The translations under genes were made by a program, and so were the position numbers. A stretch of 64,000 nucleotides of DNA from a virus: positions 23,335 to 87,334 of IMG/VR virus record IMGVR_UViG_3300021138_001972, one strand, 5' to 3'. The notes below the pieces were generated by a model that saw only the letters and a list, made by a program, of their open reading frames with translations, was not told the DNA's origin and did not search any database. Numbering within the stretch: the stretch's first letter is position 1; every line of letters starts with the position of its first letter. Shown one piece after another: positions 18,695 through 62,696 of this stretch.

Positions 18695-18797
18695 ACCAAA
18701 ATTCCACTTGACAGCACTAGATCCACGTGCTAGTTTACCGCTAGCTGAGGTATATCACATCAGGTTTGGTATGAGTATGACAAGGGACAACACACAT

Positions 18798-20279
18798 ATG
18801 GCAAAAGCAACAACCAAAGCAAAAGCTCCAAAAGACACCAAGGTCAAGGTCACTGCAGACAGTGGATCGCAGGATCCTGTACGCTTGTATCTCAGGGAAG
18901 TGGGCAAGACTCCACTGCTGAACCATGCCAAAGAGATTGAGATCAGCAAAAGCATCGAGAGCAGCAAGCAGACCATCATGGACACGCTGTTTGCAGTGCC
19001 CATGACTGTGCAGACCATCGATGCTTGGATTGGAGAGATCCAACGGGGCGATAAAGCAGTTGACACTGTGTTTGATCTGGAAGGCGACGAGGATGGCAAT
19101 CTCAGCAGCGAGCTGGATGCACAGCTATCACATGTGCGAGAATTGTGTGCACAGTATCTGTCAGACACCAGCAAGAAAGCAGCCAAGGACGAACTGATTG
19201 CTGCTTTTAATGAACTGCATCTGCTGCCCGCCAGCATTGGTACCATCATGGAACGGCTACAAGAGACCAACAGGCGATTGTTGGAAGGCGACGGCGCTCT
19301 CATGCGCTTGGCCATGGACGCAGGAGTTGACCGCAGCGAGTTCCTGGACAAGTATGTGGGACATGAGCATATGTCGTGGCTGCAAGGTACCAAAGGCAAG
19401 GGCTGGGACAAGCTTAAACACAAAGCCAACGAGATTGGCAACTGGGTTGGCATGATGCAGGAACAGGCTGATTCAGCTGGACTGCCGGTGGGCGAGCTGC
19501 GCACAGCTGTGCGTGTGTTGCGCCATCAGAGCAAGGTCAAGGATGAAGCCATAGCTGCTATGACCAAGGCCAATCTGCGCTTGGTGATCTCAGTGGCCAA
19601 GAAGTATAACCAAAACAGCAATAACGGCGGGCAGCTGCTGGATCTGATCCAAGAGGGCAACATTGGCCTGCTCAAAGCAGTGGAGAAGTTCAAGTGGCAG
19701 CTGGGCTATCGTTTCTCTACCTATGCCACCTGGTGGATCAGACAGGCCATCATCAAGGCAGCCACAGAATCCAACAGAACAATCAGAATCCCGTCGCATG
19801 TGTTGGACACGCTCAAGAAGATACAGAAGGCCACCAAGGAGCATGTGTTCGTCACTGGGCATGAGCCCAGCGTGGAAGAGCTAGCCAAGATGCTGAGCTG
19901 TGATGTGGACAAGATCAATCGCACGCTGCGAGTGGCCAAGGATCCCATCTCCCTGGAGACGCCCGTGGGTGACGAGGAAGAAGGCAAGCTAGGCAATCTC
20001 ATCGAAGACACTGAAAGCGAGAATGCCTTTGAACAGATTGCCAAGGCAGAGATCACTGAGGTCATAGGTGATGTGCTGGAAGGGCTGAGCAGCAGAGAAG
20101 AGCGTGTGCTGCGCATGCGCTTTGGCATTGGCACCATGCGAGAGTACACCCTGGAAGAGATCGGCAATCGCTTCAATGTCACTCGCGAGCGCGTGCGGCA
20201 GATCGAAAACAAGGCATTGGAGAGATTGAAGAATCCTCAGCGGGCTCGCGACCTGCTCAGTGCTATCACCGACCAATGA
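18798..20279 (+). CDS. full-length primary-type sigma-70 factor
   Basis: 493 aa from the ATG at 18798 (AAGGGA 10 bases upstream); the frame stays open to 18708. It directs RNA polymerase to promoters. Region 1.2 is visible (Q-D-P-V-R-L-Y-L-R-E-V-G), then a non-conserved insert, region 2.1-2.4 (L-R-L-V-I-S-V-A-K-K-Y, D-L-I-Q-E-G-N-I-G-L, F-S-T-Y-A-T-W-W-I-R-Q-A-I), region 3 (T-I-R-I-P-S-H) and region 4.2 (Y-T-L-E-E-I-G, V-T-R-E-R-V-R-Q-I-E). The residues that read TATAAT and TTGACA in RpoD are kept. It lacks the long acidic region 1.1. A complete group 1/2 sigma is rare in phages. It overlaps the next gene as ATGA. Confidence 0.93.
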   Translation: MAKATTKAKAPKDTKVKVTADSGSQDPVRLYLREVGKTPLLNHAKEIEISKSIESSKQTIMDTLFAVPMTVQTIDAWIGEIQRGDKAVDTVFDLEGDEDGNLSSELDAQLSHVRELCAQYLSDTSKKAAKDELIAAFNELHLLPASIGTIMERLQETNRRLLEGDGALMRLAMDAGVDRSEFLDKYVGHEHMSWLQGTKGKGWDKLKHKANEIGNWVGMMQEQADSAGLPVGELRTAVRVLRHQSKVKDEAIAAMTKANLRLVISVAKKYNQNSNNGGQLLDLIQEGNIGLLKAVEKFKWQLGYRFSTYATWWIRQAIIKAATESNRTIRIPSHVLDTLKKIQKATKEHVFVTGHEPSVEELAKMLSCDVDKINRTLRVAKDPISLETPVGDEEEGKLGNLIEDTESENAFEQIAKAEITEVIGDVLEGLSSREERVLRMRFGIGTMREYTLEEIGNRFNVTRERVRQIENKALERLKNPQRARDLLSAITDQ

Positions 20280-47633: not shown

Positions 47634-48032
47634 ATGTTTAAGAACAGCAAGAAACAAGGCGATGCTGCATTAGGCCAAGCTATTGCGTATTTCACAATGC
47701 TTGGCTATGATGTTGCGTTGCCGTTAACAGATAGCGCAGATTGGGATCTAATTGTTGAAATGGAAGATGGGCTAAAGAGGATACAAGTAAAGTCATCCTT
47801 CCAACTTAACAAATCGGGTGTGATGATGTTTAATTGTGATGTGAAGGGCGGTAATCAAAGCTTTAACAAGCCCGCCAAGACTATACAGTCACAATGTTGG
47901 GATTTAATCTTTTTACATCATATGGTTACCGGAAAACAAGCATTGATACCTAAAGAAGTCCTCATAACAAAAGGTCAAATCAACTTAGGTAGCACTCAAT
48001 GTAAGTACAAGCAATATTACATAGGTGGTTGA
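47634..48032 (+). CDS. PD-(D/E)XK homing-type endonuclease
   Basis: 132 aa. K-Q-G-D-A-A-L-G-Q-A-I-A-Y-F near the start, then D-W-D-L-I-V-E and K-R-I-Q-V-K-S-S make the D-x(n)-E-x-K catalytic core of the PDDEXK_5 family (I-Ssp6803I-like). It cuts DNA and probably acts as a free-standing mobile nuclease in the tRNA island. More AT-rich than most neighbours, consistent with mobility. TATAAATA box and AGGAG upstream. Confidence 0.75.
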   Translation: MFKNSKKQGDAALGQAIAYFTMLGYDVALPLTDSADWDLIVEMEDGLKRIQVKSSFQLNKSGVMMFNCDVKGGNQSFNKPAKTIQSQCWDLIFLHHMVTGKQALIPKEVLITKGQINLGSTQCKYKQYYIGG

Positions 48033-49329: not shown

Positions 49330-49407
49330 GCCCCATTAGCCCAACTGGTTAGAGGTGCTAGACTTAGAATCTAGAGGTTCTCAGTTCGAATCTGAGATGG
49401 GGCACCA
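49330..49407 (+). tRNA. tRNA with UAG anticodon (Leu), short variable loop
   Basis: Acceptor GCCCCAT/ATGGGGC with A73, anticodon arm CTAGA-CTTAGAA-TCTAG, variable loop only AGGTT, T-arm CTCAG-TTCGAAT-CTGAG, encoded CCA. UAG reads CUA (Leu), yet bacterial Leu tRNAs carry a long variable arm. Confidence 0.85.
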
Positions 49408-53489: not shown

Positions 53490-53693
53490 ATGCGCTTGAT
53501 AGATCTATTTCTCACCGAAGACGAGCTGGCAGAACTGGAGTTCATGGGCAGCACCTGCACCAAAGATTGCAGCGGTCATCGCGCTGGCTACAAGTGGAGC
53601 ATGGACAGAGGCGGGCGACAACCCAGCTCAACCAGCCCAAGCTTCAACAAGGGTGCTGCTATAGCAGCCAAGGTCCGGGTAGCTCAGTGGTAG
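53490..53693 (+). CDS. truncated copy of the late CTS-like protein
   Basis: 67 aa, almost identical over 60 residues to the product of 55011 (M-R-L-I-D-L-F-L-T-E-D..., C-T-K-D-C-S-G-H-R-A-G-Y). After the shared A-A-I-A-A-K-V-R-V the sequence runs into the 5' end of tRNA-Leu and stops at TAG, so the C-terminal 40 residues are lost. Probably a duplicate cut by recombination at the tRNA. Confidence 0.65.
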   Translation: MRLIDLFLTEDELAELEFMGSTCTKDCSGHRAGYKWSMDRGGRQPSSTSPSFNKGAAIAAKVRVAQW

Positions 53694-53747
53694 AGCCTGA
53701 GCCTCAAGAGCTCCGCGTCGGTGGTTCAATCCCATCCTCGGGCACCA
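53673..53747 (+). tRNA. tRNA-Leu(CAA), short variable loop, copy 1
   Basis: Acceptor GTCCGGG/CTCGGGC with A73, anticodon loop CTCAAGA, variable region only CGCGTC, T-arm GGTGG-TTCAATC-CCATC, encoded CCA. Lacks the long arm of normal Leu tRNAs. Overlaps the end of the previous ORF. Confidence 0.8.
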
Positions 53748-56311: not shown

Positions 56312-57019
56312 TCAATTATTTAATAATCGGCGTTTTCCAGGCCAAACATGATCTTTGTATTCTTGGATATGTTTACGCCATAAGATAGTCAAAGATATTG
56401 TTGAGTGAGGATAATTTGATTTATCCACAAAGGCGGCAACAGATTTACAATCTGACTTGAGATACATTTCCCATAATTCGCAAGCTTTTTGTCTGGCAGC
56501 TTCTCTGGCTATGGCACGCCTGTCTATTTTTGCACGTTTTGCTCTAGCGAAATCTATTATACGGCCCTTAATCCAACCAACCTCCAACCAATGAGGTAAT
56601 TCATGTTCTTCTATTTTTTGATTTTTTTCCAGGACAAGATTGGTGATCCACACCTTACCAAATTGACTGTTCTTAGTTCCCGATTGATTAAGACTCATAA
56701 CCAACGAGAAATTTTTCCTACAGGCTTCATATAATCTGGAATTCATATATCTCTTACCGTTGGCTGACGCTGCCATCATCATGAATGCGTGCTGCATCTT
56801 ATACCATTCGCATGTTCCAACAGGATACATTTTGGTAAGTAGGTAATGGCAAACAAAATGTTCTCTAGATGATAACGCGATTAAATTTTCTAAATCATTA
56901 CTACCGCCGATTGATCGAGGTAGAATGTGATGTATTTCTTGATACTCGTTGATATCTGCAGATTTTTTCTTTCTGTTATTGATTATTGCATGATACCAAT
57001 TGTAATATTTGTTTGACAT
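56312..57019 (-). CDS. HNH homing endonuclease
   Basis: 235 aa. HNH motif E-I-H-H-I-L-P-R-S-I-G-G-S-N-D-L-E-N-L-I-A-L-S-x2-E-H-F near residues 28-55 (metal-binding His and catalytic His). The rest is basic with C-terminal N-Y-P-H-S-T-I-S-L-T, perhaps a DNA-binding repeat. Clearly more AT-rich than its neighbours, as expected for a mobile gene. It lies between tRNA genes. A late-type box inside an inverted repeat precedes it. Confidence 0.85.
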   Translation of the reverse strand: MSNKYYNWYHAIINNRKKKSADINEYQEIHHILPRSIGGSNDLENLIALSSREHFVCHYLLTKMYPVGTCEWYKMQHAFMMMAASANGKRYMNSRLYEACRKNFSLVMSLNQSGTKNSQFGKVWITNLVLEKNQKIEEHELPHWLEVGWIKGRIIDFARAKRAKIDRRAIAREAARQKACELWEMYLKSDCKSVAAFVDKSNYPHSTISLTILWRKHIQEYKDHVWPGKRRLLNN

Positions 57020-57780: not shown

Positions 57781-57808
57781 TTGACTGTGGTGGCAAAATC
57801 TATATAAT
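57781..57808 (+). promoter_or_regulatory. sigma-70-type promoter
   Basis: TTGACT (57781-57786), 16 bases, TATAAT (57803-57808); reads into the GIY-YIG gene leader. Confidence 0.65.
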
Positions 57809-57850
57809 TACATTGCGCGGTGGTGGAAAAGTGCCACGACAGGTTCTGAA

Positions 57851-57880: not shown

Positions 57881-58651
57881 ATGTATTACACGATTTATCA
57901 GATAACCAATCTCGTAAATGGCAAGATTTATATAGGCAAACATCAAACAAATGACTTAGCGGATGGTTATTTTGGATCTGGCACTGCATTGAAAAAGGCA
58001 ATAGCTAAACACGGGAAAGATGTATTTCGCAAGGACATCCTACATGTCTTTAACAATGAAGCAGAAATGAATGCTAAAGAAAAGGAACTTATAACCGAAG
58101 ATTTTGTTAGGAGGTTAGATACATATAACCTTGGAGTCGGAGGGGAGGGCGGCCCCCACTTCAAAGGCAGAAAACACTCTGATCAGACTAGGCAAAAACT
58201 AGCAGAAATACGGCAGATAAATCCGATAGTGTATACAGATGAACTAAGACGCAAGATGTCAGAAAAAAATAAAGGGCGTGTTGTCTCAGATTTGACTAAA
58301 CAAAAATTGAGTCAATTGGCCAACGAACGATATGCATCAGATAGCGAGGTTAGAAAAAAAATATCTGCTGCTATGAAACAATATTGCCATAGATATCCAA
58401 TGTCAGACGAAACTAAACAAAAATTGCATCTAGCGCATGTTGGAAAACGATTATCGGATGATCACAAAGATAAGATAAGAACTACTATGTTGTCAAAGTC
58501 AACTAAAGATTGGCCAGCAATACAGCAGGATTTTGACAACGGATTATCGCGAGAAAAGTTATTTTCTAAACATAACATTACCAGAAATATGCTGAGAGCA
58601 GGTAAAGCTGCTGGTTTATTTGTCGGTAGTTATAGAAGTAGACACAATTAA
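57881..58651 (+). CDS. GIY-YIG homing endonuclease 1 (Seg-like)
   Basis: 256 aa. GIY-YIG nuclease domain 1-95: M-Y-Y-T-I-Y-Q-I-T-N-L-V-N-G-K-I-Y-I-G-K-H-Q, with catalytic Glu in N-A-K-E-K-E-L. Then several NUMOD3-type repeats (K-G-R-K-H-S-D-Q-T-R-Q-K-L, M-S-D-E-T-K-Q-K-L, K-R-L-S-D-D-H-K-D-K-I) that bind DNA, and a C-terminal helix-turn-helix-like part. AT-rich and mobile. Related to the gene at 58942. Confidence 0.88.
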   Translation: MYYTIYQITNLVNGKIYIGKHQTNDLADGYFGSGTALKKAIAKHGKDVFRKDILHVFNNEAEMNAKEKELITEDFVRRLDTYNLGVGGEGGPHFKGRKHSDQTRQKLAEIRQINPIVYTDELRRKMSEKNKGRVVSDLTKQKLSQLANERYASDSEVRKKISAAMKQYCHRYPMSDETKQKLHLAHVGKRLSDDHKDKIRTTMLSKSTKDWPAIQQDFDNGLSREKLFSKHNITRNMLRAGKAAGLFVGSYRSRHN

Positions 58652-58761: not shown

Positions 58762-58877
58762 GCGGATGTAGCTCAGTGGTAGAGCGCGACCTTGCCAGAA
58801 CACATTGTTGCACCCTAGTGCATGTTAAGGTGTGTTCCGGAAGGTTGATGTCGAGGGTTCGAATCCCTTCGTCCGCT
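58762..58877 (+). tRNA. tRNA-Gly(GCC) with a 44-nt hairpin insert at position 37/38
   Basis: Without the insert it is a standard Gly tRNA: GCGGATG/CGTCCGC, D-arm GCTC-AGTGGTA-GAGC, anticodon arm CGACC-TTGCCAA-GGTTG, T-arm GAGGG-TTCGAAT-CCCTT, U73. Bases 58798-58841 interrupt the loop directly after A37 and fold as GAACACA/TGTGTTC with an inner TGCAC-CCTA-GTGCA hairpin. CCA is not encoded. Functional only if spliced or tolerated. Confidence 0.8.
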
Positions 58878-58884
58878 CATTGGC

Positions 58885-58935
58885 TCCTCAGTAGCATAAG
58901 TAGCAGTGTCAATAAGACTGCTGTGCTACTGAGGA
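58885..58935 (+). promoter_or_regulatory. ribosome-site-sequestering hairpin before GIY-YIG 2
   Basis: TCCTCAGTAGCA (58885-58896) pairs perfectly with TGCTACTGAGGA (58924-58935), with an inner AGCAGT/ACTGCT. The 3' arm contains GAGGA, the ribosome site of ATG 58942, so read-through RNA cannot be translated. Confidence 0.7.
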
Positions 58936-58941
58936 CCATCA

Positions 58942-59604
58942 ATGTTTTATACCATCTATAAGATAACCAATCTTGTAAATCAAAAGACCTACATAGGCAA
59001 GCATCAGACTGCTGATCTTGACGATGGTTATATGGGCAGCGGTAAGCTCCTGAAACTTGCCATAAACAAATATGGTATTGAGAACTTCAGCAAGGAAATC
59101 CTGCATGTATTTGATAACGAAGCTGACATGAATGCCAAGGAAAAGGAATTGGTAGTCGTGGGCGAGTCAACCTACAATCTCAACGTTGGAGGTAATGGCG
59201 GTTTTGGTTACATCAACAGCAATCTGCACCTGTGGAAAGGCAAGAACCAACGGGCTAGGAAATTGGCAGACAAGAAGGTTGAAGAACGCTACGGACCAGA
59301 ATGGCGCACAGTGATAGGCAAGATGGGCGTCAAGGCTAGACAGGTAAAATATCCAGATCTTAGCAGCAAAACTGCCAAACGCGGGCATGAAGAGGGATGG
59401 CTGACTTTCAAAGGTATGAAGCACACAGACGAAACCAAGAGAAAGATAAGTGAAGCCAACAAGCGATTGGTAGGAGCAGCTAACAGCCAATATGGAACTT
59501 GTTGGGTCATGAACGAGGCTGGCAGCAAGAAGATTCCAAAAGAAGAACTCGACAAGTACCTAAGTTTAGGGTATATTAAGGGTAGAAGAATTATGCGAAC
59601 GTAA
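58942..59604 (+). CDS. GIY-YIG homing endonuclease 2
   Basis: 220 aa. GIY-YIG domain M-F-Y-T-I-Y-K-I-T-N-L-V-N-Q-K-T-Y-I-G-K-H-Q, catalytic E in N-A-K-E-K-E-L-V; then a NUMOD3-like K-G-M-K-H-T-D-E-T-K-R-K-I-S-E and a C-terminal W-V-x-N-x2-G-S-K-K-I end shared with phage endonucleases. Unlike copy 1 its base composition equals that of the phage, so it is an older resident. The stop lies inside tRNA-Gly(UCC). Confidence 0.87.
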   Translation: MFYTIYKITNLVNQKTYIGKHQTADLDDGYMGSGKLLKLAINKYGIENFSKEILHVFDNEADMNAKEKELVVVGESTYNLNVGGNGGFGYINSNLHLWKGKNQRARKLADKKVEERYGPEWRTVIGKMGVKARQVKYPDLSSKTAKRGHEEGWLTFKGMKHTDETKRKISEANKRLVGAANSQYGTCWVMNEAGSKKIPKEELDKYLSLGYIKGRRIMRT

Positions 59605-59669: not shown

Positions 59670-59693
59670 AGAAACGTAGCACAGGGATGAACC

Positions 59694-60428
59694 ATGGGTG
59701 AGAGCAAGCGCAAGGCCAAGCAGACAAAACCACGGCAGTTCAACAAGATCGATCTCACAGAAAGGCCAGACATACCTGTGATGGCTGGCAAGCTGGAACT
59801 GGGCTTGCTCACAGCAGTGAGAGCCGAAGCACTGCGGCAGCGCACTGCTGACCCGGTGTCATACAATCATGGCCTTGCTGGCATGATCAAGGAAGAATAT
59901 CATTTCAACCCAGAGTCAGTGCCAGCACTGCTCAGCTACATCGAAGAGATGTATGAGACCTATAATCGGCACTTTGATCTCTACGGTGACAAGGTCAGCT
60001 GCCTGGGACACATATGGACCAACTTCCAAAAGAAGCACGAGTTCAACCCCATACACAATCACACCGGGGCTGTGAGTTTTACCATCTGGGTGCAGATACC
60101 CTATGACATAGCAGCTGAGCAAGCTGTGTTTCCACAGGGCACGGTGAACGTGACCAGCAACTTCCAGTTTGTGTACAGTGGCCAAACGGAAGACATCGTG
60201 ACCTACAACTTCCCAGTTCAAAAGGACTGGGAAGGCATGATACTGATGTGGCCCAGCTGGCTGTGTCACCTGGTCCATCCGTTCTACACTAGCGATGACT
60301 ATCGCATCAGCTTGGCTGGCAATATCTATGTGCTGGGTGAGAACTACAAATGCCAGGCAACAGATGATCCAGACGAGATCATACGCCAGACGCTGGCCAT
60401 GCAGGCAGCGCAGAGACAATCACAATAA
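59694..60428 (+). CDS. 2OG-Fe(II) oxygenase-like protein
   Basis: 244 aa. Double-stranded beta-helix motifs: N-P-I-H-N-H-T-G-A with the metal His, then W-P-S-W-L-C-H-L-V-H-P-F with the distal His and Y-R-I-S-L-A-G-N-I with the Arg that holds 2-oxoglutarate. The spacing is as in phage 2OG-FeII_Oxy families. It would hydroxylate an unknown target. N-terminus K-R-K-A-K-Q-T-K-P-R is basic. GGGATG ribosome site is weak. Confidence 0.75.
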   Translation: MGESKRKAKQTKPRQFNKIDLTERPDIPVMAGKLELGLLTAVRAEALRQRTADPVSYNHGLAGMIKEEYHFNPESVPALLSYIEEMYETYNRHFDLYGDKVSCLGHIWTNFQKKHEFNPIHNHTGAVSFTIWVQIPYDIAAEQAVFPQGTVNVTSNFQFVYSGQTEDIVTYNFPVQKDWEGMILMWPSWLCHLVHPFYTSDDYRISLAGNIYVLGENYKCQATDDPDEIIRQTLAMQAAQRQSQ

Positions 60429-60457
60429 CTATTAAATACCCATGAAAGGAGACAGCC

Positions 60458-60616
60458 ATGAAACAGAGCAAACTAATCCACAAACTCTATCAGGCTTGTC
60501 TCGACCACGACGAGAAGGCCATCGCTGAGCTCCGCAGGAAAGAGTTCAAGAAGATCTTCAAGCACCGAGCCGAGAACAAGACGTTCGGTAGCAATTGGTC
60601 AGTAGTTCGCATATAA
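60458..60616 (+). CDS. small basic protein, 52 aa
   Basis: ATG 60458 with AAAGGAG upstream, stop TAA 60614. Helical and basic (L-I-H-K-L-Y-Q-A-C-L-D-H-D-E-K-A-I-A-E-L-R-R-K, F-K-K-I-F-K-H-R). A TTAAATAC motif 18 bases upstream of the start may be a weak late box. No family recognised. Confidence 0.65.
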   Translation: MKQSKLIHKLYQACLDHDEKAIAELRRKEFKKIFKHRAENKTFGSNWSVVRI

Positions 60617-60626
60617 TAAACAACAA

Positions 60627-60702
60627 GGGCCCTTAGCTCATCTGGGAGAGCGATAGCTTTGCAAGCTATAGGTGATCGGTTCGAGTCCGATAGGGTCCAC
60701 CA
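60627..60702 (+). tRNA. tRNA-Ala(UGC)
   Basis: Acceptor GGGCCCT/AGGGTCC, anticodon arm ATAGC-TTTGCAA-GCTAT, T-arm ATCGG-TTCGAGT-CCGAT, ACCA. The G3-U70 pair that marks Ala tRNAs is present (G with T in the third pair). Confidence 0.94.
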
Positions 60703-60709
60703 AACTAAT

Positions 60710-60784
60710 GAGCGATTGGCGCAGCGGTAGCGCAGGGCTTTTACACAGCTAAGGTCGGGAGTTCGAATCTCTCATCGCCCACCA
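60710..60784 (+). tRNA. tRNA-Val(UAC)
   Basis: Acceptor GAGCGAT/ATCGCCC (one A-C mismatch), anticodon loop TTTACAC in a stem with one mismatch, T-arm GGGAG-TTCGAAT-CTCTC, encoded ACCA. Confidence 0.85.
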
Positions 60785-60950
60785 ACATTTGATTTGCATA
60801 ACTAGCAGGCGAGATGCTATTCTCGCACATCAACTTCACAGGAAGAAAGATGCCCTACGACGGCCACAGTAATGGGCCGCTGGCACGCAGCTGATGATCG
60901 CTAGCAAGCGTTGATCCTGCGGCCCAGCGGCTGACCAAGGAGATGCGCAG

Positions 60951-62620: not shown

Positions 62621-62696
62621 GCCCAGATATCCCAACGGCAGAGGAACCAGTCTCAAAAGCTGTGTGTTGTGGGTTCGAGTCCCACTCTGGGCACCA
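62621..62696 (+). tRNA. tRNA-Leu(CAA), short variable loop, copy 2
   Basis: Acceptor GCCCAGA/TCTGGGC with A73, anticodon loop CTCAAAA, short variable loop, T-arm GTGGG-TTCGAGT-CCCAC, CCA. Again no long arm for a Leu anticodon. Confidence 0.85.

Follow-up and report, generated by a model that had tools for sequence, protein, structure and literature searches.

As far as its published description allows comparison, the closest precedent for the element reported here is a set of small tRNA introns in the Lak megaphages. In the available portion of the report on these phages, the introns are called 'enigmatic', are conserved and unclassified, and had not been described from phages before (Devoto et al. 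2019, PMC6784885). Like the insert in a tRNA-Gly(GCC) gene that we describe, they are short and fall into no known class, their removal restores a tRNA, and they are strongly conserved between phages. The same portion gives one predicted excision point that is off by one nucleotide and leaves the mechanism unexplained. The Lak introns differ in that they sit in Tyr, Thr and other tRNAs of Prevotella phages, and the text available describes no counterpart of the hairpin family, the covariation or the RNase III-like geometry of the tRNA-Gly(GCC) insert (PMC6784885). In the open-access literature, we found no paper on the splicing mechanism of phage tRNA introns.

RNase III processing sites of phages are double-helical rods in which the cut falls at a small internal loop and has a 2-nt 3′ stagger. 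Cleavage by RNase III leaves a 3′-OH and a 5′-phosphate, and T4 RNA ligase 1 joins 3′-OH and 5′-phosphate ends in anticodon loops, as in the repair of tRNA-Lys cut by PrrC. To our knowledge, there is no case of RNase III excising a tRNA intron. The T4 ligase system resembles the present case in that a phage ligase reseals a break in an anticodon loop, and a homologue of the ligase is found on an insert-bearing contig; it serves damage repair (PMC7824862, PMC10264068), however, whereas intron removal is proposed for the tRNA-Gly insert. Archaeal and eukaryotic nuclear tRNA introns also resemble the insert: they are short, lie in the anticodon loop and pair with the anticodon, and their removal restores the tRNA (PMC4090602). 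They differ in lying between positions 37 and 38 and in having a bulge-helix-bulge and a splicing endonuclease, whereas the insert described here is best placed between 36 and 37, neither of the latter was found, and the carrier is a bacterial virus.

The window, by which we mean the whole stretch of 64,000 nucleotides that was analysed, comes from an IMG/VR virus record of 87,334 bp, itself a fragment, and carries about 30 tRNA genes in its last 19 kb. One of them, at 58762-58877 on the plus strand (as are all parts of this gene given below), is a tRNA-Gly(GCC) with 44 extra bases inside the anticodon loop. Rfam RF00005 spans the gene end to end and bridges the insert, covering model positions 1-71 with 55.9 bits against a gathering score of 29. 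The default tRNA finder did not see the gene, and with an intron allowed it was called but labelled Arg(CCG). This call by ARAGORN was dropped in view of U73, the intact UUGCC and the homologues, all of which indicate Gly(GCC). The sequence-only reading had stated that removal of 44 bases restores a tRNA-Gly, which we confirm: a UUGCCAA loop then stands on a 5-bp stem below the GCGGAUG acceptor stem, with GCC in the loop and the glycine identity bases C35, C36 and U73 present. The 5′ exon, positions 1-36 (GCGGAUG...UUGCC), lies at 58762-58796 according to Rfam RF00005 and the alignment with insert-free homologues. The same alignment and the sequence place the 3′ exon, from A37 to U73 and then CA, at 58841-58877. 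A feature that had not been noted before is that CCA is not encoded; one C of the CCA end is lost, leaving TCA, whereas all the other tRNAs of the cluster end in CCA. A search for repeats found a single copy of the insert in the window record. This single copy and the lack of matches outside tRNA-Gly(GCC) rule out a genome-wide mobile repeat.

The whole RNA at 58762-58877 has a predicted folding energy of -49.4 kcal/mol (z = -4.2 against dinucleotide shuffles) and forms one long rod that extends the anticodon stem, in agreement with the initial description of a hairpin continuing the anticodon arm. At its base CGACCUU pairs with AAGGUUG, followed by a bulged G34 and by the pairs of C35 and C36 with GG; beyond an A.C mismatch, the rod continues with a 9-bp helix and, at its tip, a small inner hairpin. 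The anticodon bases are buried in this predicted rod; that C35 and C36 pair with a GG of the insert is a further addition to the earlier reading. Placed between positions 36 and 37, the 44-nt hairpin insert covers 58797-58840 (58798-58841 if placed between 37 and 38), as judged from the fold, the alignments with homologues and insert-free genes, and the geometry of the overhang. Its helix has a 5′ arm (AGAACACAT) at 58797-58805, identified by covariation and a gapless alignment with L279, L287, L326 and L455, and a 3′ arm (GUGUGUUCC) at 58830-58838, identified by alignment and covariation. Between the arms lie a second hairpin of 20 nt in the apical loop (UGUUGCACCCUAGUGCAUGU, 58806-58825; fold and alignment), which is missing from relatives with 24-nt inserts, and a conserved UAAG loop that is part of YAAGGU (58826-58829; insert-only pattern scan and alignment). 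The final two bases, GG at 58839-58840, face C35 and C36 and, by the fold and the geometry, would overhang by 2 nt at the 3′ end once the hairpin is excised.

Relatives were sought by scanning IMG/VR with patterns for tRNA-Gly(GCC) plus the insert. The first round gave two further contigs, one from nearly the same virus (L002) and a diverged one (L001). The insert is identical between the window and L001 at 44 of 44 positions and the tRNA body has three changes, while the neighbouring DNA at 59690-60785 is only 75.7% identical. By a simple count, 44 unchanged bases are unlikely without constraint, since 0.757^44 is about 5e-6 at the identity of the neighbouring DNA. On the other hand, the conserved block takes in 11 of 12 bases of the upstream spacer, so local recombination in the tRNA cluster, rather than selection, could have kept the two inserts alike. 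Evidence independent of this question comes from covarying relatives with 24-nt inserts. A general pattern, which asked for 20-50 additional bases around the anticodon of a tRNA and left the insert sequence unspecified, listed among its matches L279 and L287, both tRNA-Gly(GCC) genes whose 24-nt inserts lie between C36 and A37. Further 24-nt homologues came from later patterns, first in L326 and then in L455/L456, and a pattern of GCC plus the insert alone matched seven RNAs, all seven of them tRNA-Gly(GCC). The window insert corresponds to the 24-nt form with the 20-nt second hairpin placed in its apical loop: it reads AGAACACAT-[20 nt]-UAAGG-UGUGUUCCGG, compared with UAAGCAUAU-UAAGG-UAUGCUUAAU in L287 and UCAGGACAU-CAAGG-UGUCUUGAAU in L279. 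The core alignment is gapless, and YAAGGURU is common to the window insert and the 24-nt homologues. In total, at least five distinct phage contigs, with six distinct sequences, carry a homologous insert of conserved structure at this one site. At 24-44 nt and with no Rfam intron match, the insert is not a group I or group II intron or another known RNA, so the initial exclusion of these classes stands. By their sequences, the carriers are related but distant phages; G003 and G006 have a UvdE-type protein in common with the window contig at about 60% identity. No close isolate bearing the insert is present among the INPHARED phages, and, judged by one head protease, the nearest isolates are jumbo phages of rhizobia and of Agrobacterium.

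The sequence-only reading had placed the insert exactly between positions 37 and 38. This is compatible with the window gene, in which 58797-58840 and 58798-58841 leave the same restored loop. In L279, L287, L326 and L455, however, a T follows GCC, and only 36|37 fits. The comparison with insert-lacking relatives that had been suggested was informative on this point as well. Empty sites occur in Agrobacterium phage Atu_ph07 (MF403008, 303237-303309), Sinorhizobium phage Phosso (PV764938) and RcXuper, and these homologous tRNA-Gly(GCC) genes, together with a second copy in L001, align to UUGCC|AA (AU in Phosso). Atu_ph07 and Phosso are isolated jumbo phages whose matched exon pieces are 91% and 87% identical to the window gene, respectively. 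Since the 24-nt relatives and the insert-free genes fit 36|37, this is probably the true insertion point, and the 37|38 assignment is probably off by one base. Among the carrier contigs, which are mostly fragments, an insert-free tRNA-Gly(GCC) was not found except for the one copy in L001, a provisional result. The L001 copy (L001:1525-1598) has a good anticodon arm, and its 5′ acceptor strand is unpaired with the 3′ strand.

Absence of conservation had been named in advance as an argument against a functional insert; what we found are homologues with compensatory changes. Pairs were counted on the cores, with the extra 20 nt of the window and L001 removed. In the insert helix, 94% of cells are paired across the six distinct sequences, and four of the nine pairs have changed on both sides and still pair. 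When both helices are taken together, there are eight double-changed pairs in the true register compared to 0-1 in slid controls. RNAalifold, as an independent check, recovers the same rod, with compensatory changes in 12 of 33 pairs. The anticodon stem varies by lineage (CGACC, UCUGC, CUUGC) with pairing always kept, and the loop halves UUGCC...AA are invariant across carriers. In the unspliced folds, the anticodon region is a continuous rod with a 1-2 nt loop, and G34-C36 are bulged, paired or open depending on the sequence. Because this context differs, the unspliced fold leaves the conservation of GCC unexplained. Our reading is that GCC and the loop halves would be kept by selection on the joined tRNA.

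We therefore consider it somewhat probable, at roughly 0.55 and judging from sequence, that the insert in the only tRNA-Gly(GCC) detected is a small structured hairpin intron that would be removed by cutting and ligation. Of the alternatives raised by the sequence-only reading, a new small tRNA intron is the best supported, with one site, one isoacceptor, compensatory changes and invariant loop halves, and with removal itself being what we infer. For a decoding tRNA the insert must go, because the unspliced anticodon is buried in the rod. The enzymes that would excise it would form a pathway so far not known from bacteria.

A possible but tentative route for this removal uses RNase III and RNA ligase 1. 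An RNase III-type enzyme, probably the host's, would cut both strands midway along the rod, behind C36 on one and ahead of A37 on the other. The hairpin would come free with a 2-nt 3′ overhang, and a T4-type RNA ligase 1 of the phage could then join the remaining C36-OH and p-A37 ends. In mid-rod, the two exon junctions are offset by 2 nt across the helix, and with 36|37 boundaries every insert closes with 8-9 of 9 pairs and a 2-nt 3′ overhang in all sequences. In this model, the stagger at the junctions is the shape of an RNase III product, and the rod resembles phage RNase III sites in its small internal loop at the putative cut and its 2-nt 3′ stagger. Speaking against RNase III, the rod is short and mismatched for a substrate, and the window helix is imperfect at its base, where it has an A.C mismatch. 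The search for a ligase or splicing enzyme gave a divided result. The 87-kb window contig, a fragment, yielded no RNA ligase, RNase III or tRNA endonuclease gene in our searches, and Rnl1 was found neither there nor in G006 or G007, which may be fragments. A T4 Rnl1 homologue (PF09511 plus T4_Rnl1_C) is encoded by G005, the insert-bearing contig of L326, and Rnl1-type matches occur in Atu_ph07 and Phosso. The presence of Rnl1 is weak evidence, since Rnl1 is common in jumbo phages. RNase III was not found among the carrier contigs searched, so the host enzyme would be needed. That jumbo phages possess protein-spliced tRNA introns of their own, cut by host RNase III, sealed by phage RNA ligase 1 and unrelated to the archaeal and eukaryotic pathway, is accordingly a rather doubtful proposition at present.

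The hairpin-extended arm might instead be the final form of a non-decoding tRNA-like RNA that binds host anticodon nucleases, glycyl-tRNA synthetase or some other factor, or serves as a decoy for them. The stable unspliced fold, the conserved sequence and structure of the insert, the lack of an encoded CCA in the window and L001, where the CCA end is damaged, and the failure to find a splicing enzyme in the window contig are all consistent with such a role. We nevertheless regard it as unlikely. CCA is encoded in the tRNA-Gly(GCC) genes of L279, L287, L326 and L455, and GCC and the loop halves are invariant despite their differing unspliced pairing contexts. Moreover, the gene is the sole GCC tRNA detected in most carriers, and its counterparts in close relatives lack the insert. 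The commonest glycine codons of the window contig are GGC and GGU.

A neutral or decaying insertion in a pseudogene, which recombination near homing endonucleases would have carried along within the tRNA cluster, is improbable. Homing endonuclease genes of the GIY-YIG and HNH types do lie within the cluster, and the extension of the conserved block over the upstream spacer and the damaged CCA ends of the window and L001 would fit decay. Neutral drift is, however, at odds with compensatory changes and an invariant exon loop across phages whose common protein is about 60% identical, and all stems of the tRNA body are kept.

The insert could also shield the anticodon from host anticodon nucleases and be removed later, as a regulated intron. 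The anticodon bases are indeed buried in the predicted fold, and there is precedent: phage tRNAs have been reported to evade anticodon nucleases through changes in the anticodon loop (PMC10264068), and the supply of phage tRNAs has been reported as an escape from such nucleases (PMC11555353). We consider this quite improbable, as nothing points to an anticodon nuclease specific for tRNA-Gly(GCC) and, the unspliced form being unable to decode, protection alone would bring no benefit.

The analogy with archaeal and eukaryotic introns cut by EndA/Sen at a bulge-helix-bulge, suggested by the near-canonical position and the pairing of C35 and C36 with GG, is mostly refuted and very improbable, because homologues are inserted at 36|37, no fold contains a 3-nt bulge, 4-bp helix and 3-nt bulge, PF01974 was not found in seven phage contigs (fragments), Atu_ph07 or Phosso, and RtcB was not found in the carrier contigs or relatives searched.

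At least 85 (later at least 88) different phage RNAs that combine tRNA ends with additional bases also matched the general pattern. Taking out one stretch leaves a perfect anticodon arm in about 26 of the matches listed, compared to about 0.04-0.26 cases per position in shuffles; at the sequence level, small inserts in phage tRNAs are common. The matches listed for bacterial genomes, and most of those in viral contigs, were tandem tRNAs, tRNA fragments or other sequence, none of them insert-bearing tRNAs. A second class of inserts, 40-50 nt long, interrupts the 5′ strand of the anticodon stem at about position 28-30 and consists of a hairpin followed by UNACWGCAA, including a CAGCAA motif. It occurs in Asn, Lys, Thr, Gly(TCC), Ile and other tRNAs (L301:4649-4765, L301:4862-4977, L274:2435-2556, L306, L324, L280, L285, L297, L240, L223 and others), its removal restores a perfect anticodon arm, and it is possibly a further intron family. 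Oversized tRNAs resembling this class are present in the isolated phages Aeh1 (L329:1510-1631, 122 nt, annotated as tRNA-Val), PX29 (L330:1508-1624, annotated as a joined tRNA-Leu) and Vibrio phage 6E35.1a (L331:2994-3103, annotated as pseudo). The cultured phage Atu_ph07 carries an insert-bearing tRNA-Tyr (L454:1405-1524, corresponding to 323904-324023 of MF403008) and a second insert-bearing tRNA (L454:12606-12714, 335105-335213), both missing from the MF403008 annotation. A T-arm-like hairpin is part of the insert of this tRNA-Tyr and of inserts in L227 and L283; a Lak intron that may encode a tRNA offers a comparison. In the anticodon region of L207, L237, L261 and L312, another group of tRNA-ended RNAs, roughly UCAUGGUGAAGGACC is shared.

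Directly 3′ of the tRNA-Gly gene, a long hairpin at 58881-58938 (plus strand) may be an RNA processing site; comparison with L001 shows a hairpin there too, its stem partly different in sequence. Homing endonuclease-like genes lie between the tRNA genes, two GIY-YIG, one HNH and one PDDEXK_5-type (57881-58651, 58942-59604, 56312-57019 and 47634-48032), and both GIY-YIG genes are missing at the matching places of L001. At about 57808-57835, the window contains a fragment like the initiator tRNA of L001 type. Three tRNA-Leu genes (49330-49407, 53673-53747 and 62621-62696) lack the long variable arm that is typical of tRNA-Leu in bacteria. A nearly full-length phage-encoded sigma-70 factor with regions 1.2, 2, 3 and 4 is found at 18708-20279.

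Because standard finders miss or mislabel genes of this kind, phage tRNA inventories are incomplete. The tRNA-Gly(GCC) inserts now form a defined family with homologues, empty sites, a conserved structure and exact junctions, which makes the question of their removal directly testable. Splicing of the insert, if it occurs, would mean that the bacterial world has a tRNA intron that does not splice itself, and that phage RNA ligases have a housekeeping substrate as well as a repair function. Otherwise, the family would represent a conserved tRNA-like RNA with a new job.
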